In this document: piece by piece, positions 28,933 through 56,098 of the stretch
Layout: each line of letters starts with the position of its first letter
Numbering within the stretch: position 1 is the first letter of the stretch
Assembly (NCBI RefSeq): GCF_000022365.1
Contig: NC_012804.1
Coordinates: 868,001-932,000, forward strand
DNA: 64,000 nucleotides
Reading direction: 5' to 3'
DNA from: Thermococcus gammatolerans EJ3
GTDB lineage: Archaea > Methanobacteriota_B > Thermococci > Thermococcales > Thermococcaceae
Position numbers and translations under genes: made by a program
Notes under the pieces: model-generated
Database searches by the model: none
Told to the model about the DNA's origin: nothing
The model's input: the letters and a program-made list of their open reading frames with translations, nothing else

Positions 28933-29415
28933 ATGAACCGGGTAAAAGTCATGCGCCCTATATTCCGTCCTGAGATAGAATCAGGCTTCGTTTTGTATCC
29001 ATACAGGATATACCACCTCAGGCTCTACTACAAGAGGTTGGGAATGAGGGATAAGGTCTTCGATTACTTCGCCTACGTTGACCTCTACCGACTCGGCGCG
29101 GAGAGAGGGGACAGGTTCATAGAACTCTATGAGTGGGAGGTGGATGAAAAGGTCGTTATGAACCCGCTCGTTGGAGATGAGGAAGCCAGAATGAAGGCCT
29201 TTGAGAGCGCCATAACCTGGGGAAACTCGCGCGTAATCTCGTGGTGGCTCCCAAGGATTGAGGTTGTTCGAGAAGAACTCGCCTACAAGGTCTTCTGGCT
29301 CTATGAGAAGAATGGTGAGAGGTTAATCCTCGACAGCCTCGACGGAAGTGAGTACAGCCTTGATGTACTGACCGGGAAGGGAAGAAGAACCTGCGAGGGG
29401 CCGTTCTGCCGCTAA
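28933..29415 (+). CDS. Hypothetical protein
   Basis: I do not recognise a family. The 160-aa protein is soluble and mixed alpha/beta, rich in aromatic residues (YPYRIYHLRLYYKR, VISWWLPRI) and ends with a Cys pair (RTCEGPFCR). ATG 28933 follows GGTGTTGAGC. It is divergent from the symporter operon and converges, with a 4-bp overlap, on the first MIT-AAA ATPase gene of the island. Confidence 0.65.
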   Translation: MNRVKVMRPIFRPEIESGFVLYPYRIYHLRLYYKRLGMRDKVFDYFAYVDLYRLGAERGDRFIELYEWEVDEKVVMNPLVGDEEARMKAFESAITWGNSRVISWWLPRIEVVREELAYKVFWLYEKNGERLILDSLDGSEYSLDVLTGKGRRTCEGPFCR

Positions 29416-30563
29416 TTTCGTCCTCCAAATTCCTCCGCCCACTTTTCATAGCGTTCAATGTCCTTCTTCGTCAGCGGGCTCTTGATCTTCTTGAACGCGA
29501 TCTCAAAATCTTCCATCTCAAGCGGCCTGACCTTCAGCTGAAGGTCTTTGATTCCAGCACTGGAGAGTCTCTCTAAATCGGCCAGCTCTGGATTGACGTC
29601 CTCCAGCATGTGATGAATGGCCATACTGCAGAGGTTGGCTATCTCCCTTCCTGAGTACAGCCGTCTAACGCTTTCTTCTGCTATTGCCTCAAGGTCGAGC
29701 CTGCTCGTGTCCAGCCCCCGGGTGTGTATCCTCACTATTTCCCTGGCCGCTTCCTTGTCCGGTAACGGCACGTAAATCCTTACGGGGAACCTGCTGAGCA
29801 GAGCCTCGTCGAGGTCCCAGGGGGTGTTAGTTGCCACCAGTGTGAGCACGAATTTCTCTCCATCGCCTTTGAAACCATCTATCTCAGCCAGAAGGGTGGC
29901 GAGAGTTCTTCTCGTTGCCTCGTGGACATTCTCCCTTTTCAGGCTCAATGCATCAACCTCATCGATGAAAATTATGCTCGGTGCTTTTTCTTTTGCGACT
30001 CCATAGAGGACGCTTATCAGTTTCGATGACTCCCCATAGTATTTACTCAGAACGTCGCTGGCTTTGACGTTGAAGAAGGTTGCCTTCAGGCTTCCAGCGG
30101 CGGCGCTTGCGAGTAGCGTTTTGCCTGTCCCCGGTGGCCCAAAAAGAAGGATTCCTCTCCAAGGTTTTATTGCCTCGGGCTTCTTTGCGAAAGCTAGTGC
30201 GACGTTCTGAGCCAGAAGTTTTTTGACCTCGTGAAGCCCACCTATGTCATTCCACGTGACTGTTGAGGTGGATATGAGCCCTTCCACGTAGGTGCGGTAC
30301 TCATCTTCTGAACCCGCTCCCCGAGTGTTGCCTTGGGGCACCGGGCTCGGAGGCCTTGCCTCAAGCTCCCGCGCAGCTTTCTCCCAGCTCTCCGCCTTTT
30401 CCAGGTAGAACTCCCTCTTCCCCGGGACTTTCTCGGCGAGAGCCTTAAGGATTCGAGCGCATTTAAGAGCATAGTCCCTCGCGGCTTCAGGATCACCCCT
30501 GCCGAGGGCCCTCTCGTACTTCCTCTTGAATTCCTCAAAAAGTGAGAGGTGGAGGGACTGCAT
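29412..30563 (-). CDS. MIT-domain AAA ATPase, Vps4/CdvC-like (copy 1)
   Basis: The 383-aa protein has three parts. An N-terminal three-helix MIT-like domain covers about 1-70 (FEEFKRKYERALGRGD, DYALKCARILKAL, FYLEKAESWEKAA). A linker follows, then an AAA domain with Walker A FGPPGTGKTLLA, Walker B IIFIDEVDAL, the sensor ATNTPWDLDEALLSRFP and arginine fingers. The C-terminal helix KKDIERYEKWAEEFGG is the Vps4-type ending. Vps4/CdvC enzymes pull apart ESCRT-III filaments through MIT-MIM contacts. The gene directly upstream, 2 bases away, encodes a Snf7-like protein, so the pair forms a minimal ESCRT module. ATG 30563 follows GGGGTTGAT. A second copy lies at 45.6-46.8 kb. Confidence 0.88.
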   Translation of the reverse strand: MQSLHLSLFEEFKRKYERALGRGDPEAARDYALKCARILKALAEKVPGKREFYLEKAESWEKAARELEARPPSPVPQGNTRGAGSEDEYRTYVEGLISTSTVTWNDIGGLHEVKKLLAQNVALAFAKKPEAIKPWRGILLFGPPGTGKTLLASAAAGSLKATFFNVKASDVLSKYYGESSKLISVLYGVAKEKAPSIIFIDEVDALSLKRENVHEATRRTLATLLAEIDGFKGDGEKFVLTLVATNTPWDLDEALLSRFPVRIYVPLPDKEAAREIVRIHTRGLDTSRLDLEAIAEESVRRLYSGREIANLCSMAIHHMLEDVNPELADLERLSSAGIKDLQLKVRPLEMEDFEIAFKKIKSPLTKKDIERYEKWAEEFGGRN

Positions 30564-30564
30564 A

Positions 30565-31131
30565 TCAACCCCTCATCGCGTCTTCAATCTGTTTCAACCT
30601 GCTCTTCGGTTCCAGGTCTGAGGATGCTGAGGCCTCAAACAGCGAAGTTGCCTCCTCTATGGTCTCGGCGTCGAAGTCTCCGGTCAGTATGCTCTCGCTC
30701 GTCAGGTCGAGCATCGTGCTCAGAGCATCATCGAGCCCCTCGACCTTTGTCATTGCCTTCTCGAACTCAACCTGCATCTTGGCCACATCCTCCGCCCCGG
30801 GCCCCTCGGCTATGCTCTCAACGATGTCCCTGCTGAACTGGATGAAGTTGGCCGACACTTTCACGAGTTCCCTCTGGATCTCGGCCTCCTCCATGAGGAG
30901 GAGAAGCCTCTTTGCCTGCTTTATCCTCTCTTCCAGGGCGAGGTATTTCATGGCACTCCGTTTTAGGAGAGCCTCGTCGCCGAGCTTTGCGGCCTCCTTT
31001 CCCTGGAGGAAGACCTTTCTCTTCAGGTTTTCGAGGTTGTTGATGTACTGCTTAAGGGCCATCTTCGCCTTCCTCATTCTGACCTTGCGCTCGATATCCC
31101 TCTCCTCCTTGGACTTCCAGAACCGAACCAC
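30565..31131 (-). CDS. Snf7/ESCRT-III-like (CdvB-like) protein
   Basis: The 188-aa, nearly all-helical protein has the layout of ESCRT-III subunits. The N-terminus is basic (RFWKSKEERDIERKVRMRKAK). A long alpha1-alpha2 hairpin covers about 20-110 (NLENLKRKVFLQGKEAA, LKRSAMKYLALEERIKQ). Then come shorter helices with FEKAMTKVEGLDDALSTMLD and an acidic C-terminal half. The last residues, DLEPKSRLKQIEDAMRG, resemble a MIM1 motif (D..x..RL..I), which binds MIT domains. The neighbouring gene encodes an MIT-AAA ATPase. I infer a membrane-remodelling filament. GTG 31131 is used. The family call rests on pattern only; a generic coiled-coil protein is the alternative. Confidence 0.72.
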   Translation of the reverse strand: MVRFWKSKEERDIERKVRMRKAKMALKQYINNLENLKRKVFLQGKEAAKLGDEALLKRSAMKYLALEERIKQAKRLLLLMEEAEIQRELVKVSANFIQFSRDIVESIAEGPGAEDVAKMQVEFEKAMTKVEGLDDALSTMLDLTSESILTGDFDAETIEEATSLFEASASSDLEPKSRLKQIEDAMRG

Positions 31132-31135
31132 GCTA

Positions 31136-33967
31136 TCACGCCCCGTTTTCCCTCTTTATGTTGTGAATCAACACCTTAAGTCTTTCTATGAAGTCGTCAC
31201 TCACCGGAAGGTTCTCCTTGATGAGAAGCTCCACCGTGTTTATCGCATTGGTGAGATCGACAAGGTTCTGAACCGTGTAGAACTTGAGGTCGTTGAGGGT
31301 GTTCAAAAGCTCCGCCTTCCTGTTGAGCTCGGCATAAGCCAGAGCCAGCCTGCCGAGCGTCTCAACCACGAGCCTTCTGTTCCTCAGGGTCTCCTCAACT
31401 GTGGTGCTCCTCTTGAGAGCCTGAACGCTCTTTGAGAGGGTCTTCTTGAGCTCTTCGACTTCCTTTTCCAGCTCGGCCCTCTTTTTTTCCACTTCATCAA
31501 GCTTCTCCAAGTCTTTAAGAAACTCCTCAACACTCTGGTACCGCTCCTCCTTCCTCTTCGCGAGGAGCTTCTCGAAGATGCCGTCGTACTTGGCAAGCGC
31601 TGGATTAATCTTTGAGGGTGGCGTGAAGCGGTAGCTCTCATCTGTTATTTTGCCGAAGACTTCTTCGTAAGTGTAGCCTTCAAAAGGTAGTTTGCCGGTT
31701 AACAGCTCGTAGAAGGTAACGCCTAACTGCCAGATGTCGGTTCTCCAATCGGTATGCCCGTACTTGCCCGGCATCAGGTGTTCGGGGGAAGCGTAGAGAG
31801 GGGTGTATCCAAGGACGCTCCTGCCAGAGCTCATCGTCCCGAGCTTCGCCAGTCCCCAGTCGGTAATCTTTGGCGTTAAGTCACTCTTCAAGAGGATGTT
31901 GAGCGGTTTCAAATCGCGGTGGTAGATGCCTTTTGAATGTGCGTGTTTGAGGCCCTCAGCGATGCCTTTGATGAGTTTCAAAGCAGTCTTCTCGTCAACG
32001 GGCTTCGGATATCCTCCCAGATCCCTGACCGTTTTTCCATCGACGTTAACACCCTCAACGAACTCCATCTCAAGGTAGGGAACTGGCAGGATGTCAACGT
32101 CATACAAGCGAACGATGTTCGGATGGTCGAGTTGCAACCATGCCGTGATTTCTTTGAGGAATGTTTTGCTCGTCCTCTCATCAATGCGCGGGATTTTCAG
32201 GGCGACGATCTTTCCGTCTTTCTTTCTCCTGGCCTTGAATACTTTGGCGAAGCCACCTTCGCCTAGGAATTCGAGGGGCTCGTATTTATCCAAGAGCTCG
32301 GGCGGGAAGCCCGGGACTGGGATTTCTTGGTGGGCGTGCTTCCTCGCTGGCACCGCCAGTTCTTCAGGTCTTTTATCCTCTATCGGTGCCGGCTCTGGCT
32401 TCGGCTTCTCTCTGGATTTTCCGCCTCTAGCTTTCGCCATAACACCACCTACCAAGAGGAGTCCGATTAGTGCTCCTGCGATGTAGATTGGGTTAAAGTT
32501 TGAACCGCCTGAGGTTTGAGCTGGAGCAGGAGTTTCTGAAGTGAAGGCGGGAGGAGTTGTGGTAGTAGTTGTTGTAGTGGTTGATGTGGTTGTGATTCCT
32601 GAGGCTGTTGTGGTGCTTGAGGTTGGTGGGAGTAGGAGTACGAGGGAAGTACTCAACGTTTTCTTTTCTCCCGCTGTGATGGTCACGGTTTTCGTGTACT
32701 CCTTGTAACCATCCTTTTTGATCTTCACTTCATGCTCGCCCGGAGAAAGCTTGTAATTCGTTAGAGGGGTTGTTCCGACGTAATTACCATCAATGTAAAC
32801 ATCAGCCCCAGCGGGTTCTGAGGTAACGCTCAAGAATCCATAAGCTGGTGTCAGACTCGGAGAAAGTGTCTTACTCTCCCCGGGCGAGAGGGTTACCTTG
32901 AGCGTGTAATCCTGATAACCCTCCTTGGAGAGTTTTATTGAGTAAGTTCCCATCATTAGATCAACAGTCAATGGGGTCTTCCCTTTGTATGTTTCGTTTA
33001 TATAAATGCTTGCTCCCGGTGGATCAGACTTAATAGTCAAATGCGCGTAGTTTGGAGTCAGAGTAATGTTAAGAGTTTTAGTTTCATTTGGTTGGAGCAT
33101 GAAAGTCGTGGTGTACTCACCGTGATCTTCCTTCGATACCCTTAGATTGTAGGTTCCAGGCTTAATAGTCAGATGGAGTGGGGTTTTACCTCTATACGTT
33201 CCATTGACATAGACTTCTGATCCAGACGGAACTGAGTTTATTATCAAGTGTGATGGAAGAGGCGTTAATGTAATTGCTAAGTTTGTCTCTTCACCGGGAT
33301 GTATTGTTACATTTGTCACGTAACTTTCATAATTTTTCATCCTGAGGATTACCGTATGGGCTCCGGTTGAGAGTTTATAATGGCTAATTGGTGTTCTACC
33401 AATGTATTCATCATTAATGTATACATTCGCCCCTGGAGGTTCTGTTGTAATTTTTAGATATCCGAATTCTGGCGTGAGTACTGCTGTTATCGTCTTCTTC
33501 TCACCCGCGGAGATGGCTACCTTTGTTGTATAGTCATAATAGCCATTTTTTGAAAACCTTACCGAATAATTTCCGGGGAGAAGGGACAATGTTAAGGGTG
33601 TTGTCCCTTTGTAATCTCCGTTTAAATACACACTTGCTCCTGATGGAGTGGACTTAAAAGTCAATGTGCCAAGAGTTGTTAAGTTCATATCGTCGACAAG
33701 ATAGAATGTAATCCTTGCAATTGTACTGTCGTCAATGCCCACAAATACTGAATCTAATCTCATGTCAAATCCTTTAAGAGTACTGTTGTAGGCGCGCTCT
33801 CCTTCATGAAGTAAGATATGTTCGTTAGTCTTTTCTGCGATATTGTAAACTTCTACCAGTGCTGTAACTTTATCCATATCCATGTCAACATTCAGAAGCG
33901 TTATTAAGTACAGACCTGAATTGTTCTTAACTATTAGACGTTTTTCCCCCAACATGGAGCCAGACAT
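31136..33967 (-). CDS. PEGA-repeat transmembrane Ser/Thr protein kinase
   Basis: The 943-aa protein has a beta-rich start (1-100), five PEGA repeats (about 101-446; each has VYxNGxYxGxTPL and GxYxVxxSKxGY), and a Thr-rich stalk (447-490). One membrane helix follows (about 493-515, IYIAGALIGLLLVGGVM), then a Hanks-type kinase (about 570-835) and a helical tail (840-943). Kinase motifs are LGEGGFAKVF, VALKIP, HRDLKPLNILL, ITDWGLAKL (DWG for DFG) and YASPEHL. The PEGA part must be outside, but this frame has no signal peptide. The upstream gene, which overlaps by 41 bases in another frame, has one; see that entry. The Snf7-like gene follows 4 bases after the stop. The tail is shared with the TIR protein. 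Confidence 0.9.
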   Translation of the reverse strand: MSGSMLGEKRLIVKNNSGLYLITLLNVDMDMDKVTALVEVYNIAEKTNEHILLHEGERAYNSTLKGFDMRLDSVFVGIDDSTIARITFYLVDDMNLTTLGTLTFKSTPSGASVYLNGDYKGTTPLTLSLLPGNYSVRFSKNGYYDYTTKVAISAGEKKTITAVLTPEFGYLKITTEPPGANVYINDEYIGRTPISHYKLSTGAHTVILRMKNYESYVTNVTIHPGEETNLAITLTPLPSHLIINSVPSGSEVYVNGTYRGKTPLHLTIKPGTYNLRVSKEDHGEYTTTFMLQPNETKTLNITLTPNYAHLTIKSDPPGASIYINETYKGKTPLTVDLMMGTYSIKLSKEGYQDYTLKVTLSPGESKTLSPSLTPAYGFLSVTSEPAGADVYIDGNYVGTTPLTNYKLSPGEHEVKIKKDGYKEYTKTVTITAGEKKTLSTSLVLLLPPTSSTTTASGITTTSTTTTTTTTTPPAFTSETPAPAQTSGGSNFNPIYIAGALIGLLLVGGVMAKARGGKSREKPKPEPAPIEDKRPEELAVPARKHAHQEIPVPGFPPELLDKYEPLEFLGEGGFAKVFKARRKKDGKIVALKIPRIDERTSKTFLKEITAWLQLDHPNIVRLYDVDILPVPYLEMEFVEGVNVDGKTVRDLGGYPKPVDEKTALKLIKGIAEGLKHAHSKGIYHRDLKPLNILLKSDLTPKITDWGLAKLGTMSSGRSVLGYTPLYASPEHLMPGKYGHTDWRTDIWQLGVTFYELLTGKLPFEGYTYEEVFGKITDESYRFTPPSKINPALAKYDGIFEKLLAKRKEERYQSVEEFLKDLEKLDEVEKKRAELEKEVEELKKTLSKSVQALKRSTTVEETLRNRRLVVETLGRLALAYAELNRKAELLNTLNDLKFYTVQNLVDLTNAINTVELLIKENLPVSDDFIERLKVLIHNIKRENGA

Positions 33968-35483
33968 TCTCTATTTTTAATTGTTGTAATGTCACCGAGA
34001 TATTTTTCACGTCTCCCCTGCTTAGGGTCACGTTGACCAAATATTCCCGATATCCATCTTTAACTATTTTCACAAGGTATCTACCGGGATCTAAATTCAA
34101 AGTTAGTGGGGTTTTTCCTTTGTAAGTCCCGTTGATATAGACATTTGATTCAGGAGGAGTGGAATAAACATTCAAGGTCGCTCTGAGTCCTGCGCATTGT
34201 GTTTCTATATGAGGATTCCATGGAGTTGGGTAAACATAGATGTTTTCCGTTACCTTAATCGATGGTTGTGAAATTGTTGCTTCACTTGTGCCTATTGTAA
34301 TCCCGAGGAACGCTGTCTCAACGTTAGACGCTTTACAAACTTCACACCCCGGTACTCCGCCACTGGACGGAAGCTTGAGAACCCAAACGTCTTTGCCACC
34401 AGCGCCGAAGCTATCAGTGTAGCCTGCCACTATTACGTCCCCGTTATCTGCAACGGCAACTGCATAAGCCTCCTCCTCGTCACTCCCGCCGTATGTTTTT
34501 TGCCATTTAACATTACCATTCTCATCAAGACTGAGGATCCAAACGTCATCATAAGCGCCGAAGCTTTCAGTGTAGCCTGCTACAATAATGTCTCCGTTTG
34601 GTACGAGAGCAACAGCGTTACTGCCAACGTTTTTTGCCCAGATCACGTTTCCGTTTGCATCAAGTCGCACTGTGAAGGAGCCTGTGATGATGATGTCTCC
34701 GTTTGGCGCGAGAGCAACCGCGTGAGCCTCATCCCGACCGCTCCCGCCGTAGGTTTTTTGCCATTTCACGTTCCCATTCTCGTCCAAGCGAAGAACCCAA
34801 AAGTCATAATAGCCAGCGCCGAAGCTATCAGTGTAGCCTGCCACTATTACGTCCCCGTTATCTGCAACGGCAACCGCGAAAGCCTTCTCCCAATAGCTCC
34901 CGCCGTAAGTCTTCTGCCACTTCACGTTTCCCTGGCCATCAAGCCTGAGAACCCAAACGTCTTTCCAGTCAGCGCCGAAGCTTTCCGTATAACCTGCGAC
35001 AATAACGTCCCCGTTCTCTGCAACGGCAACCGCATTAGCCACATCATTGGAGCCTCCGCCGTAGGTCTTCTGCCATTTCACGTTCCCATTAGCATCAAGC
35101 CTGAGAACCCAAACGTCACTTTTTCCAGCGCCGAAGCTGGAAGTTCCTCCAGCCACTATGATATCCCCGTTGTCAGCTATTGCAACCGCGTTACCATAAT
35201 CATCTTTATTCCCTCCGTAAGTTTTTGCCCATTCTACTTCTCCTTCTGGCGAAAACTTCATGACGAGGACATCTTTACCTCCAGCTCCGGTTGAATCTGT
35301 GGAACCCACAGCGATAATGCTTCCATCCGGCAGAACCTTAACGTCATTGATAACCTCATCACCGCTACCGCCATAGCTCTTAACCCAGTAAACCTGACTC
35401 CCATCGGCCTCAATCCCGGGGGCACTGACCCCCAACAGGGCAACCGCGATCAGCAGGATCAGCGCAACTGGGAGTTTCCTCAT
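33927..35483 (-). CDS. Secreted seven-bladed beta-propeller with PEGA repeat (possible 5' part of the receptor kinase)
   Basis: The 518-aa protein has a signal peptide (MRKLPVALILLIAVALLGVSA) and seven propeller blades of the form NGDVIVAGYTESFGA..DVWVLRLDENGNVKWQKTYGG; blade five is shortened. After the blades comes a GCEVC motif, then one PEGA repeat (about 435-500), then a short end. It stops soon after the G5A5 run at 33941-33950 (plus-strand coordinates). The next gene's frame continues with more PEGA repeats from this point. A +1 shift there would join them into a receptor kinase of about 1450 aa with signal peptide, propeller, six PEGA repeats, TM and kinase. ATG 35483 follows GGGGTGGTAGT, with TATA-like CTTTATTATC upstream. 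Confidence 0.85.
   Translation of the reverse strand: MRKLPVALILLIAVALLGVSAPGIEADGSQVYWVKSYGGSGDEVINDVKVLPDGSIIAVGSTDSTGAGGKDVLVMKFSPEGEVEWAKTYGGNKDDYGNAVAIADNGDIIVAGGTSSFGAGKSDVWVLRLDANGNVKWQKTYGGGSNDVANAVAVAENGDVIVAGYTESFGADWKDVWVLRLDGQGNVKWQKTYGGSYWEKAFAVAVADNGDVIVAGYTDSFGAGYYDFWVLRLDENGNVKWQKTYGGSGRDEAHAVALAPNGDIIITGSFTVRLDANGNVIWAKNVGSNAVALVPNGDIIVAGYTESFGAYDDVWILSLDENGNVKWQKTYGGSDEEEAYAVAVADNGDVIVAGYTDSFGAGGKDVWVLKLPSSGGVPGCEVCKASNVETAFLGITIGTSEATISQPSIKVTENIYVYPTPWNPHIETQCAGLRATLNVYSTPPESNVYINGTYKGKTPLTLNLDPGRYLVKIVKDGYREYLVNVTLSRGDVKNISVTLQQLKIENVWLHVGGKTSNS
33941..33950 (-). other. Possible frameshift site (G5A5 homopolymers)
   Basis: On the minus strand GGGGGAAAAA lies inside the 41-bp overlap of the propeller-PEGA gene and the PEGA-kinase gene. 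A +1 change of frame here removes the early stop and fuses the two. It could be a sequencing error, a true mutation, or a programmed slip. Confidence 0.5.
34399..34874 (-). repeat. 62-bp identical direct repeats inside the propeller gene
   Basis: Positions 34399-34460 and 34813-34874 are identical over 62 bases, within different blades of the same propeller. Such identity at the DNA level, beyond protein conservation, points to recent duplication or gene conversion between blades. Confidence 0.75.
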
Positions 35484-35538: not shown

Positions 35539-38500
35539 TCATTCCTCCGAATTTTCCGGATTTGCGGTCTCGGCAGTAGTCTGCCCGGGGTTTAAGAGGG
35601 AGTCTATCTCTCTGATAATCGCCTCCTTGAGTTCACTATATTCTCTCCGTTTCTCTTCGATGGCGTGAATATGAGTCAGGACTTCTTCCTTAATGCGCTG
35701 AAGTTCACTTCTGTTCTTCTTTCTGTACTCCCTGTTTGCCGACTCCAGGAGGGATTCAAGCGCTTTCCTGTTCTCCTCGGCTTCCTCGGGAATGAGGCCG
35801 TTGAGGGCTGCGTTCACAGTTGTCACAATGCTTCCATATAGCCTCCTGAGGCGCTGTCTCCTCACGAGGAGTGCCACGAGGGTTATCAGCAACAGCAGAA
35901 CAATCCCAGCCGCACCGTAGAGGATGTAGTTGTTAATCGATGGGAACGGATCCTCCTCATTTAGAATACCGTCCCCGTCAACGTCTCTGGCTTTCTCTGC
36001 CGCGTTAAGTGCGAACGACTTTGCGCTCTCAAAGTCCCCGTTCCTCAGTTTTTCAACTGCCTCATTCAGGAGATTTTCCGCTTCGGAGGGATCAAGCCCT
36101 AAGGATTTTGCGGAGTCGATGGCCTTCCTTGCCTGGTCAATGTCAGCCAGTACCTCATTGCACTTGTTTTCTCTCTCGTTGAGGGTGTTCCCAGCGTTCT
36201 GGAGCTCTCCTCTTGACGCGGTGAAGTTCCCCGCTTTGAGATACTCAAGGGCCTTGTTAAGGCTCTCCTCGATGTCTGAAACGGGACAGCCCTTCTTCTT
36301 CATGTCTTCTGTCTCGGAGAGGACGCTTTCTATGTCTTTCTTTAGAGAGGTGCCTTCCTCTCTGCACTGATCGATCGCACCAAGGGCCTCCACCGCAAGG
36401 TTGAGAGCCTCCCTGTACTCATCCTTATTGAAGCGCTCCCTCGCCAGTCTTAACGTGGAGTTTCCATATGGACATCCGATCCCCTCGTTCTGGAGGGATG
36501 TGAGGTTTGCGGTAACCTTGTTGATGACATTCTCCGAGTAAGTTTTCTCGACTTCTTTGAGGTCTCCCAGTATCGAGAGTGCGGAGTTCCTTGCCTTTAG
36601 TGCGTTGGTTGTGGCATGGGGATACTTCCCTTCGCTGTACAGGGTTCTTGCTGAATCTAGCACTGACATCGCCAGCTGAAGTTTGTTTTTCTCCTCGTCC
36701 ACGGGGAAGCCGAGCTTCTCGAGCGTTGACAGGGTTTTTGACACGTTTTCTATGGTCTCATTGGCAAGTTTGATTTCATTTTCAGCCTCGATTCTGTAGT
36801 TCTCTACCGTCTTATTGGCCATGCTCAGCGCCTGCGTGGCCAGGGTAGAGGCCTCCAGGTACAGGCCACCCCTAAGCTTCTCGACGGCCTCGTTTAGGAC
36901 GTTCTTTGCGTTTCCAACGTCGAGTCCGTGCTTCACCGCCCAGGTTATGGTCTCATTTGCCTCAGCTATTCTGTTAAGGGCTTCTTCCCTGTACGACTGG
37001 AGCTTATCGTTGAGTGATGAGACCACAGCCTCGGCCTTCGTCCTCGCGCTTTCGGCCTTTGTTATGGCGTCGGTGTACCTGCCAGCGTTGTAGAGATCCA
37101 CGGCCGTGCTGAGCATTTCTCTGGCCTTATTGAGCTTGTCCTCGTACGTTTTGGTATCAATGCCGGCGTCCTCAGCTGAGGTAATCAGGCCTTCAGCTTT
37201 GACGATTGACTGGTTCGCAGCGTTTATTGACTCTGTGGCCTGAGTCCGGACTTGGGCGAGTGTGTTCAAACAGCTTTCCTTGGCTTTCTGGGCGTACTCC
37301 TTTGCCTGCTTGTATTCGCCGTTGTTAAGGGCCTCCTTCGCTTGGTTCAGGAGCGACTGGGCCTCGGAGACATCTATCCCCTTCTCAACGGTTTCGTTTA
37401 TTGTGGTCTCAGCGTCCTTAATTACAGCCTCAGCCTCCGCCTTCATAGCCGCGAGTTTGGCTTGTTCAGCCAGTTCTTGGGCCTTTGTATAGTCTCCGCT
37501 GTTGAGGGCTTCCCTCGCCTGGTTCAGGAGGTCCTCGGCATAGGTTGTGTTCGCCCCCGCGTCCTTGGCCATTTTTATTATTTCTGTTGCATTCTCTATG
37601 GCGACTGAGGCGTTGTATCTCTTAAGGAGGTTCATTGCCGCATTCTCTGCGTTTCTCGCGATCTCCTCAGCCGTCGGATAATATCCTCCTGTATAGTTCT
37701 CAAGGGCCTTTGATAGAAGTGACTCTGCCATCGACGTGTTAAGACCGAGGGTTCTGGCTTGGTTTATAGTTTCGTTGGCGTCTTCAATTGCGCTCCACGC
37801 GTCCTCTTTCGCTTGGGAGATGGCTTCCTGGGTTAAGTTATAGGCCTGGTCTGCGTGTTCCTTCGCGGCAGAGTACAGTCCTGAAGAATACTCACTTTTT
37901 GCGATGTTCAGCATATTCTCGGCGTCACTCACGTTTATTCCGTGATTTACGGCGTAGTTTATGAGGTTCTCCGCCTGCTGGATTGCATTTTCGGCGTCTG
38001 CTTTCATCTGGATCTCTTCGATCGGGTTCATGTAATACACTTTGTCCGCACCTATGACGACGTTTCCGGTTTCCCTGGCGAGGGTCATGTCCCATACTCT
38101 TGAACCGAGAGAATTGGCCCAGATTACGTTTCCTTCTGAATCAAAAAGGACAACGAGTCCACGCTGCGTTCCGGCGATGGCATATTTTCCATCCGGAGTC
38201 AGCAGCACCTTGGTAACGCCGCCATTATTGAGATTTTTCTCCCACAGCAGCTTTCCACCCTTGCTTAACTTATAAACATGTCCGTTCCAGTTCCCCGCAA
38301 AAACCTCGTTTCCGTTAGAGGTTATCGCCACCGTTCCAACGTCGTTCCCGGTATAGTATGTCCAGAGAAGGCCTCCAGACTTCGTGAACAGATACACGTA
38401 GTCCGAATACGAGCCCACGGCTATGTACTCTGCATTGGCCGAGAGGGCGATGTCCCTGACCTCGCCCGGTAGCACACGTGACCACAGGAGGGTTCCGTCT

Positions 38501-41500
38501 GTCCCCAAGAGGTAGAGCTTTCCGTCCTGCGTTCCAGCAGCTATGTAGTTACCTGATATCTCCACGTCGAGAACGCCCGCATTCGAGGGGATACCACCGC
38601 TCGACGGATACCTCCACAGTAGCTCTCCCGTTCTACCGTCAAACACGTATACCGAAGCATCACGGGAGCCCACGACTACGTACCTTCCATCGTCCGACAC
38701 CGCAACGCTCCACACTTCCCACTTGGTGGTGCCCATCCAGAGGAGCTCCCCGTTCCTGTTGAAGGCGTAGACGTTGTGATCCACCGAACCGGCGACGACC
38801 ATCGACCCGTCGGGCGTGATGGCGACATCACTTATTGTGTCCTCGGCCCTAAAGCTCCACAGAGCCGATCCGTTGCCCTCGAGAAGGTAAACATCGTTTC
38901 CCGAGCCCACCACGACGTACTTTCCGTCAGGGGTAGTGTCGACGGTCGAAACTGATGAGGGACTCGGCCACTGCCAGGATACGTTTCCGCTACCTTCATG
39001 GATCGCGGAGGATGGGGTGAGCGTAACCGTTACCTCGGTCGTTTTATCGGCTTCCACAGTTATCTTGGTTATGTAGGTTACGTAGCCTCTCTTTGCGATC
39101 CCGAGCGAGTACACACCCGGTGAAACAGGGTATCCATCTATCGGCGTGTCCCCGATGTAAGTTCCGTTGAGGTAAACCGCCGCCCCGGAGGGGGTTGTGT
39201 GGACAGCAAGGTAGCCCGGTTTTAGCGTTAGATCGACGTTAAGGGTTCTGTTCTCTCCGGGATTCAGCGTTATTGTTGTGCTGTACTCGGTGTAACCCTC
39301 CTTGCTGACCCGGATTGAGTATTTGCCCGGGAAGAGGCTAAGGGTTAGGGGGGTTTCACCCCTGTATGAGCCGTTGATGTAGACTTTTGCTCCGGAGGGA
39401 TTGGAGTTTACCGTCAAACTCACCGGTAAGGGCTGGAGGACGGCGTTAACTGTAACTTTTCCCCCGGGTGACACTTCCACGGTTTGAGTATACTCTTCAT
39501 ACCCGAATTTGGTGAGCTTTACCGTGTACACTCCCGCGTTTATTTTGTAGTTCTGGAGGGGTGTCTGCCCGACCCACGTCCCGTTAATGTAGACATCGGC
39601 CCCTGAGGGAGTGGAGTAAACGTCCAGAGTGCCCGGTAAGGGCGTTAACGTTGCCGATACGACCGTGGTTTTGTCCGCCTCGATGGTTACGGTTGTGGAG
39701 TAGTCCTCGTAGCCGTCTTTCCTGAGGAGGAGCTGGTACTTGCCTATTGAGAGTTCAAGGTTCTCGATGGGTGTTAAACCGGCGTAGGTTCCGTTTATAT
39801 AAACCTCTGCTCCTGACGGATCGGTTTTTACCGTCAGGTAACCGTGGGCTACGGTCAGGTCAACGGAGATCGTCCTGGTCTCGTTTGGCTGGAGGGTAAT
39901 CGTTGTGGTGTAGTCATCGTAACCTTCCTTGCTGACCCTCAAACTGTAAGTTCCGGGCTGGAGGGTTAGCGTCAGGGGGGTTACGCCCCGGTAAGTGCCG
40001 TTAATGTAGACCCCCGCCCCGGAGGGATTTGAGTTAATCGTTAAATGTGCCGGGAGGGGGGTTAGTTTGATGTTTAAGGTTTTGTTTTCCCCGGGTGAGA
40101 GGGTTATCGTCGTCGTGTAATCCTTGTAATCCTCCTTGGAGAGCTTTATCGTGTATGTTCCGGCCATTAAATCAAGAGTCAAAGGTGTTTCACCCTTGTA
40201 AGTTCCATTGATGTAAACGCTTGCCCCCGAGGGATCGGATTTAATGGTTAAGTGCGATATTGTGGGTGTTAAATTCACGCTGAGTGCCGTTTTCCCTCCG
40301 GGTTTTATCGTTACAGTTGTTTTATAATCCGTGTAGTTTTCTTTTTTGAGCGTTACCTCGTAGGTTCCCACTGACAGGTTTGTGGTGAGGGGAGTTGTTC
40401 CGGCGTAGGTTCCGTTGATGTAAACCTCTGCTCCAGAGGGGTTTGTAGTGACGCTAAGGGTTCCGATGGAGATGTACTGGGTCTCCACGGTGAGATCCAC
40501 TGATCCGGGACTGGCATAAGTAGTTTGCACGTTCGCGTTGGTGTCCTGGACAGTCGCGCTGGAGTCGCTCACCTGAACGTTTGGGGTGCTGATGCTTGCG
40601 TTTGAGTTACTACAGAGGTCACAGTAGAGTAGGTTTCCGTCTGGTGGAAGGCGAAGAACCCAAACGTCATAACTACCAGCGCCGAAGCTGTCAGTCCTGC
40701 CTGCCACTATAACGTCCCCGTTGTCCGCAATGGCAACCGCGGTAGCCTCATCCCAGTCACTTCCCCCGTATGTTTTTTGCCATTTTACGTTTCCATTTTT
40801 GTCAATATTAAGGGCCCAAAAGTCGGTATACCCGTTACCAAAGCTGGTAGTTCCGCCCGTAACAATGATATCTCCTGTGGAAGTCAGGTGGATACCGTTT
40901 GCGTAGTCATAGTTGCTTCCGCCATAGGTTTTTTGCCATTTTATACTGCCGTTTTCATCCAAGTAGAGAACCCAGAGATCATCTTTACCAACGCCGAAGC
41001 TATAACTCCATGCGGCGATGATCAAATCTCCCGTGTCTGTGACTGCCACATCCTGAGGTCTCTCCCATTGACTTCCCCCATAAGTCTTCTGCCACAACAC
41101 ATTCCCGGAGCTGTCCAGCTTGAGAACCCAGACATCTCCCCCTCCAGCGCCAAAGCTGGTAGTATCTCCAATAAGGTATGTGTATCCATCTGGGGAACCG
41201 GCTACTATAACTCTGCCATAATCTAACCCATTAGTAGAGCTGTCGGAACTGCTTCCACCATAGCTTTTCTGCCAAAGGATATCACCATCCGAGTTCAATT
41301 TTAGCATCCATAGGTCGTTGTCCCCGGCACCATAGCTGTTTGTTACTCCTGCAACCAAGATATCTCCTGACGACAATACATAGACGTCCTTAGCAACTTC
41401 ATCATTGCTTCCCCCATAGGTCTTCTGCCATCTTATGCCCCCGTTCTCATCCAAGCGTAGGAGCCAGATGTCTTTACCTCCAGCCCCGGAACTGTTGGTG

Positions 41501-44500
41501 TAGCCTGCCACTATAATGTCACCGTTTGGAGCAACGGCAACCGCGTATGCCTCTTCGGATCCGCTGCTTCCATAGGTCTTTGCCCATATTATTTTACCAT
41601 CAGACGAAAGCCTCATTACGAGGACGTCATTTCCTCCAGCTCCACTTGACTTTGTGTATCCCACGGCAATAATGCTTCCGTCTGGCAGGGTCTTAACATC
41701 GTTTATGACATCTTCATTACTCCCACCGTAGCTCCTAACCCAGTACGGAGGCTTTTTGACCTTGAGTTCCTCTCCGACTGTTGCGATGGGGTCTTTGGGG
41801 GCGTATTTGCGGACGAAGATCCAGTCTGCGTAGAATGGCTTATTTGGGTCTTCGTTGTCTGTCCATATCATAATGTACTTGAATGTCGTGAATTCTCCAT
41901 CTTGAGCACTCTGGCACCAGTTATCTACACAGTATTTGATAATGCCTTCCTTATTAATTGCTAGTTTTAGAATTCTCCAATTTTCCAAATTTGGTGAGCC
42001 TTCCCCCTCTTTTAGATTAACATAACTTCCGTCACCTTTGAATTTTGTTATTGTCCATGTTCCATCTGGATATGGAGAACTCTCTCCTAAATATCCATTG
42101 AATGGATGACCTCCATCATCAAAACCATCACTGAACACTCCCAAACCCTCTTGGTCATTCCTGTAATACTGTAGAGGTTGTATCCCTCTCATCTCTATTA
42201 TAAATGGAACTGTGAGGTCTACTGGGGCGTATAATATATTGTTTTTTGTATTGTCAGTTTCTGAAATTTTCACGACTGAGTCTCCGTCATACGTTGTCAC
42301 AGTTGCTTTTGCATAACTAGTTTTCCACTTGTTCTTGGTTAGGGTAATGAAGTCGTCAAAGAACTCAAACACCTTGTCCCCATCACTTCTGCTCTGGGCG
42401 TTTGGATTCCCGTAGTAGAGCCTCAGCTTAACTTCTCCATTAGCGGGAATCCTTGGGATTATCGTCCAGATCTTTGCCCTCTTTGCCGTCAAGTTCCACT
42501 CCTCAATCCAATAAGGCAAAAAGTTGCCGTTCTCGTCAACGATTCTGATGTCGCTACCGTCTGGTTTGGCTTTAGAAAAGTCGAAGTTAGTGGAATCGAG
42601 TTCGATTAAAACCTGGAAGTTCTCTAAAGTCTCGCCCGACTGCTCTTTTATAGTAACTTCACGGTAGTACTTCCACAGGGAAAGGTCCTCAGGAGTGAGG
42701 TACTCAACAACCTTGCCAACACCCTGCTCGTACAGAGCCTTAACTTCCCCCTCACTTAAAGCACGGTTGTAGATGCGGACTTCGTCAAGTAAACCTTTGA
42801 GTTGTTGGCTGGAGTCCCAGCATCCTCCAACGCAGTCTTGATCATTTCCTATCCACAGTCCATCCTCGGCTATTTTAATCCCGTCTCCGGAACCCTCGTC
42901 GCTCTGGTTTACGAGGTTTCCATTAATGTAAATTTTGGAGGATGTTGGAGTTACTACAACAGTCACCATCTTCCAATTGTCATCGTTAATGGGTGGAGAG
43001 TACATTATGGATTTGCCATGGATATGGAATTTGATTCTACCCATGTATTCTTCGTACATGGGATCAGAGGGGACAGTGCCCATGAATATTAGAAATTCAT
43101 TATCCCAGTCATAATTTGCTCCTGTGAGAATGCCTTGAACCCCATTTGTTGTTTTGATCCAGAAGTTTACGGTTACATATTTTAATCCGTCCAGATCTGC
43201 GTGTGGGAGTTTAATCCTGTCCCCGTATTCTTGAAACTCAAACGCCTTCCCGATAACTCCATCAATGCACTCTGGATTCCCGTAGATAGTCCCATCGTGC
43301 CCGTTACCGCTATCGTCCCGAGCGTCACAGTGGTCAAAGGAGTAGTACGCAACCAGGCCACGATTGAGATCAATCTGATCCTGCTGGAAAGAGCTCGGTG
43401 TTAGGAGGGGGGAACTCCCTATCTCGCTGGCTCCCTCTATCTGTCCCGCCCATCCGCCAATGCGGATGTAGTCTCCCGAAATGTTGCCGACGATGTATAT
43501 AGCGGTTGCTTCGCTGGGGTTGTCGGCCCTGTCGGAGAAACGGTATATGTGGCCTCCCGGTAACGTCCCCACGTAGTCGATAGTTCCGTTTATTCCATAG
43601 TCTTTGTATATTTTTACGTCGCTCTCGGCGTAGAATACGAGCTCGTGATTTACAGTATGAGTTCCCACGGGGTAAATGAAGCCGAAGAGCGTTGAGTTCT
43701 CGGCTGGCTTCACCGCCGTTGCGCTCATTGCGTACCTCGGTGCATCGTTTCCCCAGGGGTCTTTGTAGTAGTATGTCCTGAACACAAAAACCGCGGAGTC
43801 CGAGAGGGAGAGCACCTCCGGATCAGTTGGGAGGCTCTCGTTCTTGACGATCTGACCGTTCGAGTTAACCACCACGTAGTACTCGTTGACTTCTACGGCG
43901 TTTGCATCAGTTGCGTACTCCTTCTCGGAACAGGGTATCAGGAACTTTCCGGTCATCGGGGGCATCAGCGGAAATGCGTACGTTCTGCTGCGGTCGTCCG
44001 CGTCTCCATAGGCCGCTACCGCGACCACAGGTTCATCGGAGGTTATCACGACGGTCTGGGGCGTTGTGAAGTTTCTAATCATGACATCACCGAACTTTAC
44101 ATTACCCGCATACTCTCCGTTTATGTAGACAGTAGCATCCTGAGAAAATGGAGTGATGTACAGCCATCTTACATTAGCTCCGAGCAGTCTGGTTCCTGGC
44201 ATTGGTACAGAGTATTCGAGGCCGCCATCTTCATAGTCTCCAAAGTCTGCAGAGAGGTAATAGAATTCCACCTGGATCGGCTTGTTTGAATACAGAGCAA
44301 TGGGATCCCTATCCCAGTATATCTTCTTGAAATCCGATGAAACATCCGGAAAGTCCCCTATGTAAACCCTCTCTCCAGCCGTGAGCTGAACTTCGGTATC
44401 AGAGTCATCTAGACCATTGAAATTTCCGTCAATTATAATAACAGTATCTGGATCAGTGGCGTATACAACGATCCCACTCCCATACCAGCTCGGTCCCCAC

Positions 44501-44646
44501 AGCGATTTCAGATGAACCAGAGGAAACACGTACTTGTACTTGTAGTCAACCGTCCCTGCGGAGACGAGTCCACTCTGGTTCTGGGTTGGAGGGATCAAGC
44601 TTGAGATCAGTAACACAACCCATATCACCACAAGGTACTTCCTCAT
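35539..44646 (-). CDS. Giant multidomain surface protein (LamG, DUF2341, two propellers, seven PEGA, helical repeats, TM, cytoplasmic tail)
   Basis: The approximately 3035-aa protein starts with a signal peptide (MRKYLVVIWVVLLISSLI). Approximate order: a beta-rich N-terminal domain (30-430); LamG-like fold (442-632, LVAYYSFDHCDARDDSGNG); DUF2341 (652-958, YWIEEWN, LRLYYGN); propeller of the NGDIIVAGY type (962-1335); CDLC motif; seven PEGA repeats (1390-1882); a second, WD/PQQ-like propeller (1885-2200); about ten helical repeats with the pattern AE..L..A.E.L..G.Y..A...A (2215-2882); a calcium-type DVDGDGILNEEDP loop; a membrane helix near 2905; and a charged tail of about 105 residues inside. 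The tail resembles that of the PEGA protein at 62.4-64 kb. ATG 44646 (second Met) has GGGAGGAG at good spacing. It is probably an adhesin or mechanosensor that passes a signal inward. Confidence 0.88.
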   Translation of the reverse strand: MRKYLVVIWVVLLISSLIPPTQNQSGLVSAGTVDYKYKYVFPLVHLKSLWGPSWYGSGIVVYATDPDTVIIIDGNFNGLDDSDTEVQLTAGERVYIGDFPDVSSDFKKIYWDRDPIALYSNKPIQVEFYYLSADFGDYEDGGLEYSVPMPGTRLLGANVRWLYITPFSQDATVYINGEYAGNVKFGDVMIRNFTTPQTVVITSDEPVVAVAAYGDADDRSRTYAFPLMPPMTGKFLIPCSEKEYATDANAVEVNEYYVVVNSNGQIVKNESLPTDPEVLSLSDSAVFVFRTYYYKDPWGNDAPRYAMSATAVKPAENSTLFGFIYPVGTHTVNHELVFYAESDVKIYKDYGINGTIDYVGTLPGGHIYRFSDRADNPSEATAIYIVGNISGDYIRIGGWAGQIEGASEIGSSPLLTPSSFQQDQIDLNRGLVAYYSFDHCDARDDSGNGHDGTIYGNPECIDGVIGKAFEFQEYGDRIKLPHADLDGLKYVTVNFWIKTTNGVQGILTGANYDWDNEFLIFMGTVPSDPMYEEYMGRIKFHIHGKSIMYSPPINDDNWKMVTVVVTPTSSKIYINGNLVNQSDEGSGDGIKIAEDGLWIGNDQDCVGGCWDSSQQLKGLLDEVRIYNRALSEGEVKALYEQGVGKVVEYLTPEDLSLWKYYREVTIKEQSGETLENFQVLIELDSTNFDFSKAKPDGSDIRIVDENGNFLPYWIEEWNLTAKRAKIWTIIPRIPANGEVKLRLYYGNPNAQSRSDGDKVFEFFDDFITLTKNKWKTSYAKATVTTYDGDSVVKISETDNTKNNILYAPVDLTVPFIIEMRGIQPLQYYRNDQEGLGVFSDGFDDGGHPFNGYLGESSPYPDGTWTITKFKGDGSYVNLKEGEGSPNLENWRILKLAINKEGIIKYCVDNWCQSAQDGEFTTFKYIMIWTDNEDPNKPFYADWIFVRKYAPKDPIATVGEELKVKKPPYWVRSYGGSNEDVINDVKTLPDGSIIAVGYTKSSGAGGNDVLVMRLSSDGKIIWAKTYGSSGSEEAYAVAVAPNGDIIVAGYTNSSGAGGKDIWLLRLDENGGIRWQKTYGGSNDEVAKDVYVLSSGDILVAGVTNSYGAGDNDLWMLKLNSDGDILWQKSYGGSSSDSSTNGLDYGRVIVAGSPDGYTYLIGDTTSFGAGGGDVWVLKLDSSGNVLWQKTYGGSQWERPQDVAVTDTGDLIIAAWSYSFGVGKDDLWVLYLDENGSIKWQKTYGGSNYDYANGIHLTSTGDIIVTGGTTSFGNGYTDFWALNIDKNGNVKWQKTYGGSDWDEATAVAIADNGDVIVAGRTDSFGAGSYDVWVLRLPPDGNLLYCDLCSNSNASISTPNVQVSDSSATVQDTNANVQTTYASPGSVDLTVETQYISIGTLSVTTNPSGAEVYINGTYAGTTPLTTNLSVGTYEVTLKKENYTDYKTTVTIKPGGKTALSVNLTPTISHLTIKSDPSGASVYINGTYKGETPLTLDLMAGTYTIKLSKEDYKDYTTTITLSPGENKTLNIKLTPLPAHLTINSNPSGAGVYINGTYRGVTPLTLTLQPGTYSLRVSKEGYDDYTTTITLQPNETRTISVDLTVAHGYLTVKTDPSGAEVYINGTYAGLTPIENLELSIGKYQLLLRKDGYEDYSTTVTIEADKTTVVSATLTPLPGTLDVYSTPSGADVYINGTWVGQTPLQNYKINAGVYTVKLTKFGYEEYTQTVEVSPGGKVTVNAVLQPLPVSLTVNSNPSGAKVYINGSYRGETPLTLSLFPGKYSIRVSKEGYTEYSTTITLNPGENRTLNVDLTLKPGYLAVHTTPSGAAVYLNGTYIGDTPIDGYPVSPGVYSLGIAKRGYVTYITKITVEADKTTEVTVTLTPSSAIHEGSGNVSWQWPSPSSVSTVDTTPDGKYVVVGSGNDVYLLEGNGSALWSFRAEDTISDVAITPDGSMVVAGSVDHNVYAFNRNGELLWMGTTKWEVWSVAVSDDGRYVVVGSRDASVYVFDGRTGELLWRYPSSGGIPSNAGVLDVEISGNYIAAGTQDGKLYLLGTDGTLLWSRVLPGEVRDIALSANAEYIAVGSYSDYVYLFTKSGGLLWTYYTGNDVGTVAITSNGNEVFAGNWNGHVYKLSKGGKLLWEKNLNNGGVTKVLLTPDGKYAIAGTQRGLVVLFDSEGNVIWANSLGSRVWDMTLARETGNVVIGADKVYYMNPIEEIQMKADAENAIQQAENLINYAVNHGINVSDAENMLNIAKSEYSSGLYSAAKEHADQAYNLTQEAISQAKEDAWSAIEDANETINQARTLGLNTSMAESLLSKALENYTGGYYPTAEEIARNAENAAMNLLKRYNASVAIENATEIIKMAKDAGANTTYAEDLLNQAREALNSGDYTKAQELAEQAKLAAMKAEAEAVIKDAETTINETVEKGIDVSEAQSLLNQAKEALNNGEYKQAKEYAQKAKESCLNTLAQVRTQATESINAANQSIVKAEGLITSAEDAGIDTKTYEDKLNKAREMLSTAVDLYNAGRYTDAITKAESARTKAEAVVSSLNDKLQSYREEALNRIAEANETITWAVKHGLDVGNAKNVLNEAVEKLRGGLYLEASTLATQALSMANKTVENYRIEAENEIKLANETIENVSKTLSTLEKLGFPVDEEKNKLQLAMSVLDSARTLYSEGKYPHATTNALKARNSALSILGDLKEVEKTYSENVINKVTANLTSLQNEGIGCPYGNSTLRLARERFNKDEYREALNLAVEALGAIDQCREEGTSLKKDIESVLSETEDMKKKGCPVSDIEESLNKALEYLKAGNFTASRGELQNAGNTLNERENKCNEVLADIDQARKAIDSAKSLGLDPSEAENLLNEAVEKLRNGDFESAKSFALNAAEKARDVDGDGILNEEDPFPSINNYILYGAAGIVLLLLITLVALLVRRQRLRRLYGSIVTTVNAALNGLIPEEAEENRKALESLLESANREYRKKNRSELQRIKEEVLTHIHAIEEKRREYSELKEAIIREIDSLLNPGQTTAETANPENSEE

Positions 44647-44686
44647 GTTCATCTCCTCCCATTCAGGTGTTGGTTATGCTCATCAA

Positions 44687-45642: not shown

Positions 45643-46845
45643 TCACCCCCCAAACTCCTCCGCCCACTTCTCATATCTTTCAATGTCCTTCCGCGTCAGC
45701 GGGCTCTTGATCTTCTTGAACGCCTCCTCAAAGTCCCTCATCTCAAGCGGTCTCGTCCGCAGCGAGCGCCTCCTGAGCTTCTCGTAGGGCAGTTCCGCCA
45801 GCTTGTGGAGGTCCGGGTTCTCCTCGCGAATCATGTTCCACACCGCCTCCTGGCAGAGGTTCTTGATGTCCCTGCCCGAGTAAAGCCTTCTGACGCTCTC
45901 CTCCGCTATTGCATCGAGGTCGAGCCTGCTTATGTCCAGCCCGCGCGTGTTGATTTTGATGATCTCCTTCGTGGCCTTCTTGTCGGGTAAAGGCACGTAG
46001 ATCCTCCTCGGGAACCTCGACAGGACGGCCTCGTCCAGGTCCCAGGGAGTATTCGTGGCGGCTAAGGTTAGGACAAGAATATCGCTCTTCTTGTCCTGAA
46101 AGCCGTCGAGTTCGGTGAGAAGGGTAGAGAGCATCCTCCTGCTCGCCTCGCTCTGCTCACCGGAGCGCTTGGTCGTTAGGGCGTCTATCTCATCCATGAA
46201 GACTATGCTCGGGGCCCTCTCGCGGGCGACCTCGTAGAGGGCTGTTATTATCTTGGTGGACTCACCGAAGTACTTGCTCAGCACGTTGCTGGCCTTGACG
46301 CTGAAGAAGGTCGCGTTCAAACTTCCTGCGGCGGCGCTCGCAAGAAGAGTCTTACCAGTTCCCGGCGGGCCGAAGAGCAGAATACCCTTCCAGGGCTGGA
46401 TGGACTGGGGCCTCTGCAGGGCCGAGATGACGACTGTCTCCATTATGAGCCTCTTCACCTCCTCCAGCCCACCGATGTCGCTCCACTTCACCTTCGACTT
46501 GGCAATGAGGTTCTCCACGTAGCGCTTGAACTGGTCTCCCTCGTCTGCGCCCGCTTCGCTTCCTCCCCTGCCACTCTTTCCACCCTCCTTTATCGGTTTC
46601 TGCTTCCTTTTGACGCCGTAGTGACCCTCCTCGACTTCCTTCGCTATGGCCTCCCACTTCTTCGCCTTCTTCAGGTAGCTCTCGCGGTTGAACTCGTCGT
46701 ACTTTGAGAGCTGCTTCAGTATCCTTGCGCACTCAAGGGCCTTCTTTTTGGCGGTCTCCTTATCGCCCTTCTTTATTGCCTCCTCAAACTCCTTCTTGGC
46801 CTTCCTAAAGGCCGACATCAGGGGTCCGGACAGATCGACGGGCAT
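45643..46845 (-). CDS. MIT-domain AAA ATPase, Vps4/CdvC-like (copy 2)
   Basis: The 400-aa protein is a close paralogue of the ATPase at 29.4 kb. The MIT-like helices are at about 8-75 (MSAFRKAKKEFEEAIKKGD, KKKALECARILKQL, SYLKKAKKWEAIA), followed by a longer basic linker. The AAA domain has FGPPGTGKTLLA, IVFMDEIDAL, the NTPWDLDEAVLSRFPRR segment and the ending RKDIERYEKWAEEFGG. The start ATG 46845 has AGGAGGTG six bases before it. It lies 12 bases after the K+ channel gene. Two MIT-AAA copies with one Snf7-like protein suggest different clients for the two ATPases, or one acting on the channel/surface complex. Confidence 0.88.
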   Translation of the reverse strand: MPVDLSGPLMSAFRKAKKEFEEAIKKGDKETAKKKALECARILKQLSKYDEFNRESYLKKAKKWEAIAKEVEEGHYGVKRKQKPIKEGGKSGRGGSEAGADEGDQFKRYVENLIAKSKVKWSDIGGLEEVKRLIMETVVISALQRPQSIQPWKGILLFGPPGTGKTLLASAAAGSLNATFFSVKASNVLSKYFGESTKIITALYEVARERAPSIVFMDEIDALTTKRSGEQSEASRRMLSTLLTELDGFQDKKSDILVLTLAATNTPWDLDEAVLSRFPRRIYVPLPDKKATKEIIKINTRGLDISRLDLDAIAEESVRRLYSGRDIKNLCQEAVWNMIREENPDLHKLAELPYEKLRRRSLRTRPLEMRDFEEAFKKIKSPLTRKDIERYEKWAEEFGG

Positions 46846-46857
46846 CTCAAACACCTC

Positions 46858-52405: not shown

Positions 52406-53181
52406 TCTTTCACCCCCGAACGTTTCTGGGTAGAAGATTCCCGCTCTAAGACTACCTCGTGAAGAACAATCTCTAGCTCCCTAATGAATTCAGGACTGAT
52501 TTGGAGATCTTCTCTTATGTAGATTTTCAGGTAATCAATCAGAGCTTCCATCTTGGTTCTATGGATTGTTGTGTAAAGGTGTAGTTTCTGTAGGGTTTTA
52601 ACAAGCTCCATTTTTTTGTTCGCTTTGGCTTCAAGAATGGCCATCTCAACGAGCAAGGTTATATCTTGATGATCTACATGGTAATTTTGAGAATTGCCTT
52701 TTGGTTGTATTACATCCCGAGTTTGGGACAAATGTCCAATAACTAGTCTTCTTTTTTGATATCTCTCCAACGTCAAGATTACTTTTGAGTTCAACTCAGA
52801 TTTATCCCTCCATTCAATTACCTGTTTCTCAGAGATTCCGGGAAATGCTGGCTCAATACGGGTGAGGATATTCCCAACACTCTCCCCCACTGGCATATAC
52901 ACACATGCGATTATGGTTTTTCCCAGTCTCTTGGCGTATTTGTATTCTTCTCTGGTCCATTTTCTTGTTTCAGCACCTGGAGTGTATAGTAGGATGAAGT
53001 ATTTGATATGAGGTAGAACATAGTTGAAAATTATGTCCTTCCAGTGTTCCCCAGGAAGGATATTGTGGTGTGCCAAGAATGCTTTCCATCCATTGTCTCT
53101 CAACGCCTTTTTGAGCTCTTCTGCATAATCTAAACCCGTTCTCGTGTAGTAGCTGAGGAATATCTCGAAGTCTTTCTCCAT
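52402..53181 (-). CDS. TIR-domain protein with kinase-type C-terminal helical domain
   Basis: The 259-aa protein has a TIR-like N-terminal domain (about 5-130): IFLSYYTRTGLDYAEEL, GWKAFLAHHNILPGEHW, YFILLYTPGA, and TREEYKYAKRLGK with a candidate catalytic Glu. TIR domains often cleave NAD or act as adaptors. The C-terminal part (about 175-245: VKTLQKLHLYTTIHRTK, YIREDLQISPEFIREL, IVLHEV) resembles the tails of the Ser/Thr kinases in the same cluster. This suggests shared regulation or direct complex formation. ATG 53181 follows GGGGGTGA. It is coupled by ATGA to the following propeller-Schlafen gene. Confidence 0.8.
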   Translation of the reverse strand: MEKDFEIFLSYYTRTGLDYAEELKKALRDNGWKAFLAHHNILPGEHWKDIIFNYVLPHIKYFILLYTPGAETRKWTREEYKYAKRLGKTIIACVYMPVGESVGNILTRIEPAFPGISEKQVIEWRDKSELNSKVILTLERYQKRRLVIGHLSQTRDVIQPKGNSQNYHVDHQDITLLVEMAILEAKANKKMELVKTLQKLHLYTTIHRTKMEALIDYLKIYIREDLQISPEFIRELEIVLHEVVLERESSTQKRSGVKE

Positions 53182-56053: not shown

Positions 56054-56098
56054 GCATTATTGTTTTATGCATTACACTTTTATGCATTGCTGTTTTAT
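56054..56098. repeat. Three tandem 15-bp repeats (GCATT...TTTTAT)
   Basis: Units at 56054-56068, 56069-56083 and 56084-56098 share GCATT-n5-TTTTAT with changes only in the middle. On the minus strand each unit holds a GCATAAAA TATA-like element. The stop of the upstream kinase lies in one unit. The array spans nearly all of the gap before the next gene's ribosome binding site. Confidence 0.75.

Follow-up and report, generated by a model that had tools for sequence, protein, structure and literature searches.

A predicted ESCRT-III protein and a Vps4-type ATPase at one end of a kinase-rich island in Thermococcus gammatolerans

Described ESCRT systems and the T. gammatolerans island

In 2024, Makarova et al. 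described a 'Main' euryarchaeal ESCRT system and named the Thermococcales as members of its clade (PMC10936438). As set out in the main text of that paper, Main systems contain Vps4, ESCRT-III, arCOG09748-like and arCOG08177-like genes, membrane Ser/Thr kinases and a phosphatase, while the solo Vps4 of the Thermococcales is named as a separate long-branch clade. The same paper argues that complex ESCRT systems do not serve cytokinesis (PMC10936438). Reviews of 2018 and 2021 had considered the Thermococcales to be without ESCRT-III (PMC6524685, PMC10117752).

We analyzed a stretch of 64,000 nucleotides (the window) from T. gammatolerans EJ3, whose genome is a single contig of 2,045,438 bp; a Thermococcus-type host had been read correctly from the letters. 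The work was computational and covered the gene pair, the predicted folds, the MIT match, the conserved tail, synteny and co-occurrence. The original prediction singled out two adjacent genes, one for an ESCRT-III-like protein (here E1) and one for a Vps4-like ATPase (Vps4a). Both genes are real. However, the pair only marks where a larger island ends; this island, of an already published system type, spans 45 kb on the minus strand, was missed by the prediction and reaches ∼74.5 kb in window numbering, beyond the window. The features of the island are as follows.

29412..30563 (-): Vps4a, MIT–AAA–Vps4_C ATPase paired with E1, 383 aa, ATG start (Pfam, MIT model)
30565..31131 (-): E1, predicted ESCRT-III protein, 188 aa, GTG start (AF2, Foldseek, weak Snf7, 30 orthologues)
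31136..33967 (-): PEGA repeats, TM helix (493-511), Ser/Thr kinase and C-terminal helical domain, 943 aa (Pfam PEGA, Pkinase)
33927..35483 (-): signal peptide, propeller repeats and PEGA (fused to the kinase in relative G032)
35539..44652 (-): giant surface protein, 3037 aa, with propeller, PEGA and coiled coil, a TM helix near the C-terminus and a cytoplasmic tail
45643..46854 (-): Vps4b, second MIT-Vps4 (61% identical), 403 aa, corresponding to the Vps4 of the conserved core
46858..47985 (-): pentapeptide-repeat ion-channel protein (Pfam Pentapeptide, Ion_trans_2)
47988..50861 (-): propeller Ser/Thr kinase that has the shared domain at its C-terminus
52402..53181 (-): protein with a TIR domain and the C-terminal helical domain of the kinases (TIR_2 1.8e-10; 42.6 bits)
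56095..57720 (-): membrane Ser/Thr kinase that corresponds to the STK of the core
57787..60381 (-): membrane PP2C protein phosphatase
60383..62350 (-): Ser/Thr kinase lacking a TM helix
62372..64000 (-): LamG-like/PEGA surface protein, extending to 66469 outside the window
66549-67163 (-): E2, ESCRT-III-like, outside the window
67163-67774 (-): E3, ESCRT-III-like, in tandem with E2, outside the window
67802-68606 (-): MNT/HEPN pair, outside the window
68608-70443 (-): arCOG09748-like winged-helix coiled-coil protein, outside the window
70436-70966 (-): arCOG08177-like Cas2/TBP-like protein, outside the window
71271-74537 (-): kinase, outside the window

Vps4 and ESCRT-III are thus encoded together with 09748-like and 08177-like proteins, the gene set of the Main clade, the last two calls being based on length, coiled coil, gene order and homology to G002 in comparison with the published descriptions, and not on arCOG profiles. 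Judged by the description in the main text of Makarova et al., the island is a Main system, and hence its kind has been known since 2024 (PMC10936438). It differs from the Main systems presented there in that its genes, spread over 45 kb, include two for Vps4, three for ESCRT-III-like proteins and five for Ser/Thr kinases, besides those for a TIR protein and for surface proteins of very large size; a PP2C phosphatase and two archaeal ATPases are also present. The main text of PMC10936438 makes no mention of a second Vps4 paired with E1, nor of TIR. Apparently new with respect to that text are the Vps4a–E1 pairing (11 species), a MIM1-like tail on E1, and a TIR protein that carries the C-terminal domain of the kinases, although the locus may already figure in the supplementary tables.

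The 42.6-bit score of the TIR protein was obtained with a profile built from the C-terminal domains of four island kinases, and it is this common helical domain that ties the TIR protein to the ESCRT locus. When profiles of the ESCRT-III-like proteins were compared, E2 and E3 proved related (98.6%), whereas E1 matched E2 and E3 with a probability of only 10-11%; kinship of E1 with the other two therefore lacks sequence support.

Several minor features of the island were also recorded. The propeller-PEGA and PEGA-kinase ORFs overlap in different frames (33927-33967) at a GGGGGAAAAA run, and their counterpart in G032 is a single protein of 1352 aa. Since the kinase ORF by itself has no signal peptide, the change of frame at this point may reflect a frameshift, slippage or an error in sequencing. 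The ORF at 50909-52405 (-) combines propeller repeats with a RecG-type C-terminal/DeoR HTH protein, and an insertion may have fused the two genes. E3 is separated from the 09748-like gene by the nucleotidyltransferase/HEPN toxin-antitoxin-like pair, which the compact loci described below do not have. The surface proteins at 35539-44652 and 62372-66469 (-) are homologous in their TM helix and in the helical tail on its cytoplasmic side (47 bits over 101 residues).

E1, Vps4a and the tail that may join them

E1 was described beforehand as a helical, ESCRT-III-like protein with a basic N-terminus and an acidic C-terminal half, and the charges agree: residues 1-60 hold 18 K+R versus 8 D+E, and residues 108-188 hold 7 versus 20. 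It is not a chance ORF, because orthologues occur in 30 of 94 Thermococcales genomes and purifying selection is strong (dN/dS ∼0.03 for 32 unsaturated pairs). An AlphaFold model built from 26 sequences (pLDDT 81.8, pTM 0.68) has helices at 8-50, 53-107, 113-149, 155-166 and 175-187, of which the first three make up a predicted ESCRT-III helical core, that is, a long helix 1–2 hairpin with a following helix. We compared this model to ∼350,000 PDB chains with Foldseek. The top three matches were all CdvB of Sulfolobus islandicus, albeit weak ones (E 0.02-0.05, TM ∼0.4), and CdvB2 filaments were found within the top 15. Among Pfam families, Snf7 is the one matched repeatedly by E1 relatives, over most of their length. 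For E1 itself the match is weak (E 0.0063, 16.6 bits) and under the cut-off of 27.3 bits, and for a close relative it comes to 26.9 bits (E 4.5e-6); the control genome of Sulfolobus acidocaldarius likewise stays under the cut-off, and the most distant E1 members give no Snf7 match.

Could E1 instead be another long helical protein, BAR-like or a plain coiled coil, that adjoins a Vps4-type ATPase by chance? The sub-threshold Snf7 score would suit such a protein, as would the BAR domains that come close behind CdvB in the fold ranking, and PDB sequence searches with E1 and E1 profiles matched no solved ESCRT-III structure. We nevertheless regard coincidence as very unlikely, given that CdvB chains head the ranking, that the relatives match Snf7 along most of their length, that a conserved MIM1-like tail sits next to an MIT ATPase, and that distant genomes also place E1 beside Vps4 and 09748-like genes. 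The assignment of E1 as an ESCRT-III protein, which draws on the modelled fold, conservation and adjacency to Vps4 in distant archaea, is well supported, and gene neighborhood is its strongest support.

Just downstream of E1 on the minus strand lies Vps4a, as had been foreseen, except that the intervening gap is one base and not two (TGA, T, ATG). The PEGA-kinase gene upstream ends 4 bases before E1. With gaps this small, kinase, E1 and Vps4a look like one transcription unit. Both AAA (PF00004, 5.8e-38) and Vps4_C (PF09336, 1.5e-8) exceed their cut-offs in Vps4a; Walker A, sensor 1, the SRF arginine-finger and sensor 2 are present, and Walker B (IIFIDEVDAL) can be read in the translation. The Pfam MIT profile did not match Vps4a. 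When modelled separately, residues 1-80 fold into a bundle of three helices, which in the PDB best matches the MIT domains of Sulfolobus Vps4 (2v6y/2w2u; TM 0.77-0.82, rmsd 1.6). Thus, the MIT-like bundle and Vps4-type C-terminal helix claimed at the outset both hold up, and membership of Vps4a in the Vps4 family, with a modelled N-terminal MIT domain, is well supported. The gene evolves with dN/dS ∼0.11. We also considered IetA as an identity for Vps4a and rejected it, as the matches reflected general AAA homology and were weaker than those to CdvC.

MIT domains bind the MIM1 motif, for which the eukaryotic consensus is of the (D/E)xxLxxRLxxL(K/R) type. The last helix of E1 (residues 175-187), which is conserved and follows a variable linker, resembles this motif. 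A search with the pattern [DE]xx[LIVMPA]xx[RKN]Lxx[ILVM][EKRD] found it in 26 of the 30 Thermococcales E1 proteins, and relatives in Archaeoglobales/Halobacteriota have a MIM1-like tail as well. In the Thermococcales the tail departs from MIM1 in having P instead of L and E instead of K/R; its residues L179 and I182 are invariant. The tail of the Geoglobus MAG protein, DARIEERLREVE, is the one that we take to be nearest to the eukaryotic consensus. The MIT domain of Vps4a may bind the E1 tail. An earlier survey of Euryarchaeota found no such protein-interaction motif (PMC8970359).

The pair can be set beside two better-known systems. It resembles Sulfolobus Cdv (CdvA, CdvB, CdvC) in that the predicted fold of E1 is CdvB-like and Vps4a is a CdvC-like ATPase with MIT. 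It differs in that no CdvA-like gene was recognized in the island, E1 has no fused wH, its tail is MIM1-like rather than of the MIM2 type, and FtsZ is present. With eukaryotic ESCRT-III of the MIM1-bearing Vps2/CHMP type and Vps4, the pair has in common a helical core, a linker, a C-terminal helix and an MIT-bearing ATPase, although it is very distant in sequence and the Thermococcales motif shows the substitutions noted above.

Occurrence and gene order

Among 94 Thermococcales genomes, 30 have E1 (∼75-96% identity), 39 have E2 and 49 have Vps4 homologues; one further E1 match, in G034, is marginal (E 0.005) and is not counted among the 30. Two thirds of the genomes are without E1, and every genome with E1 also has E2. 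ESCRT-III is therefore present in about one third (by E1) to two fifths (by E2) of the Thermococcales genomes searched, in contrast to the statements of the 2018 and 2021 reviews. A compact core of ∼8 kb, consisting of 08177, 09748, E3, E2, STK, Vps4, PP2C and E1, is seen in G070, G086 and G002 (the E3 of G070 is hidden by an overlapping ORF in the locus map and appeared in other searches). Farther afield, the Halobacteriota genome G436 has the order 08177-like gene, 09748-like gene, E1 (46% identical), MIT-type Vps4.

Vps4a directly follows E1 in 11 genomes. In a tree of Vps4 proteins from the Thermococcales and G436, with Cdc48, Vps4b forms one clade (99/100) and Vps4a is either a clade or a grade. 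We read Vps4a as a paralogue dedicated to E1. A solo-type Vps4 occurs in 17 genomes; these proteins belong to the same AAA family (52-58% identical), but they fall on separate branches of the tree and have no ESCRT-III gene alongside.

Two more E1 homologues came from metagenome-assembled genomes. One (L148:4989-5522, 'Candidatus Nitrosothermus koennekii') is 56% identical over the alignment, has no MIM-like tail and no Vps4 within the surrounding 7 kb, and is the sole copy among 300 genomes of its class; because it stands alone, we treated it as a transfer or mis-binning. A copy in an Archaeoglobus MAG (79%) is suspect on the same grounds of transfer or mis-binning.

Kinase-gated membrane remodelling and other readings

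The reading we favor, with a probability of roughly 0.7, is that E1 serves as an ESCRT-III subunit of a Main system, with Vps4a as its disassembly ATPase, and that the two carry out kinase-gated remodelling of the cell membrane other than division. E1 would polymerize at the inner face of the membrane, using the helical hairpin and the basic first helix; its MIM1-like C-terminal helix would be captured by the MIT domain of Vps4a; and a Vps4a hexamer would thread E1 subunits through its pore, so that filaments turn over and the membrane is remodelled. Gating by phosphorylation is favored because a phosphatase belongs to the core and because the E1-proximal kinase joins its catalytic domain to PEGA repeats and a TM helix. 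Since assembly is probably gated by kinases whose PEGA/propeller domains face outward and whose catalytic domains face inward, the role is likely to be signal-dependent remodelling, in which surface proteins are sorted or shed or the membrane is repaired. That the two large surface proteins are cargo or anchor proteins is speculation.

A more specific function, extracellular vesicle or nanotube release, had been suggested from the start. It has a precedent in Sulfolobus, whose vesicles require ESCRT-III and Vps4, and T. gammatolerans does produce vesicles (PMC10117752). However, T. kodakarensis also makes vesicles (PMC10117752), and its presumed genome (G023, KOD1) has only a solo-type Vps4, with no E1 or E2 homologue found. 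Moreover, disruption of the Vps4 homologues in that species left vesicle production unchanged (unpublished, reported in PMC10117752), and vesicle composition is alike across species. As T. kodakarensis forms vesicles without the island, release finds no support as a general function, and we consider it unlikely that the pair drives it as ESCRT does in Sulfolobus. By the same token, Vps4 disruptions in T. kodakarensis are no test of the ESCRT-III system, because the species appears to be without one. In species that bear the island, candidate roles are the release of vesicles, the sorting of surface proteins and the repair of membranes.

Bolder, and in our estimation improbable, is the idea that the island encodes an ESCRT machine driven by receptor kinases, with a task in membrane surveillance or defense. 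Here, surface sensors and the TIR protein, which have one docking domain in common, would switch on the ESCRT-III/Vps4 pair, which would seal or shed damaged or attacked membrane in an archaeon that carries FtsZ.

Finally, although homologous proteins divide Sulfolobus cells (PMC10936438), a part for E1 and Vps4a in cytokinesis is barely credible, in line with the original prediction, as the T. gammatolerans genome has three FtsZ/tubulin-family genes, the island genes include no recognizable CdvA (a search that covered the island), so that neither CdvA nor division without FtsZ marks this system as Cdv-like, and E1 is patchy in occurrence and absent from most Thermococcales. FtsZ-carrying archaea with compact ESCRT loci offer a clean setting in which to study ESCRT function outside division.
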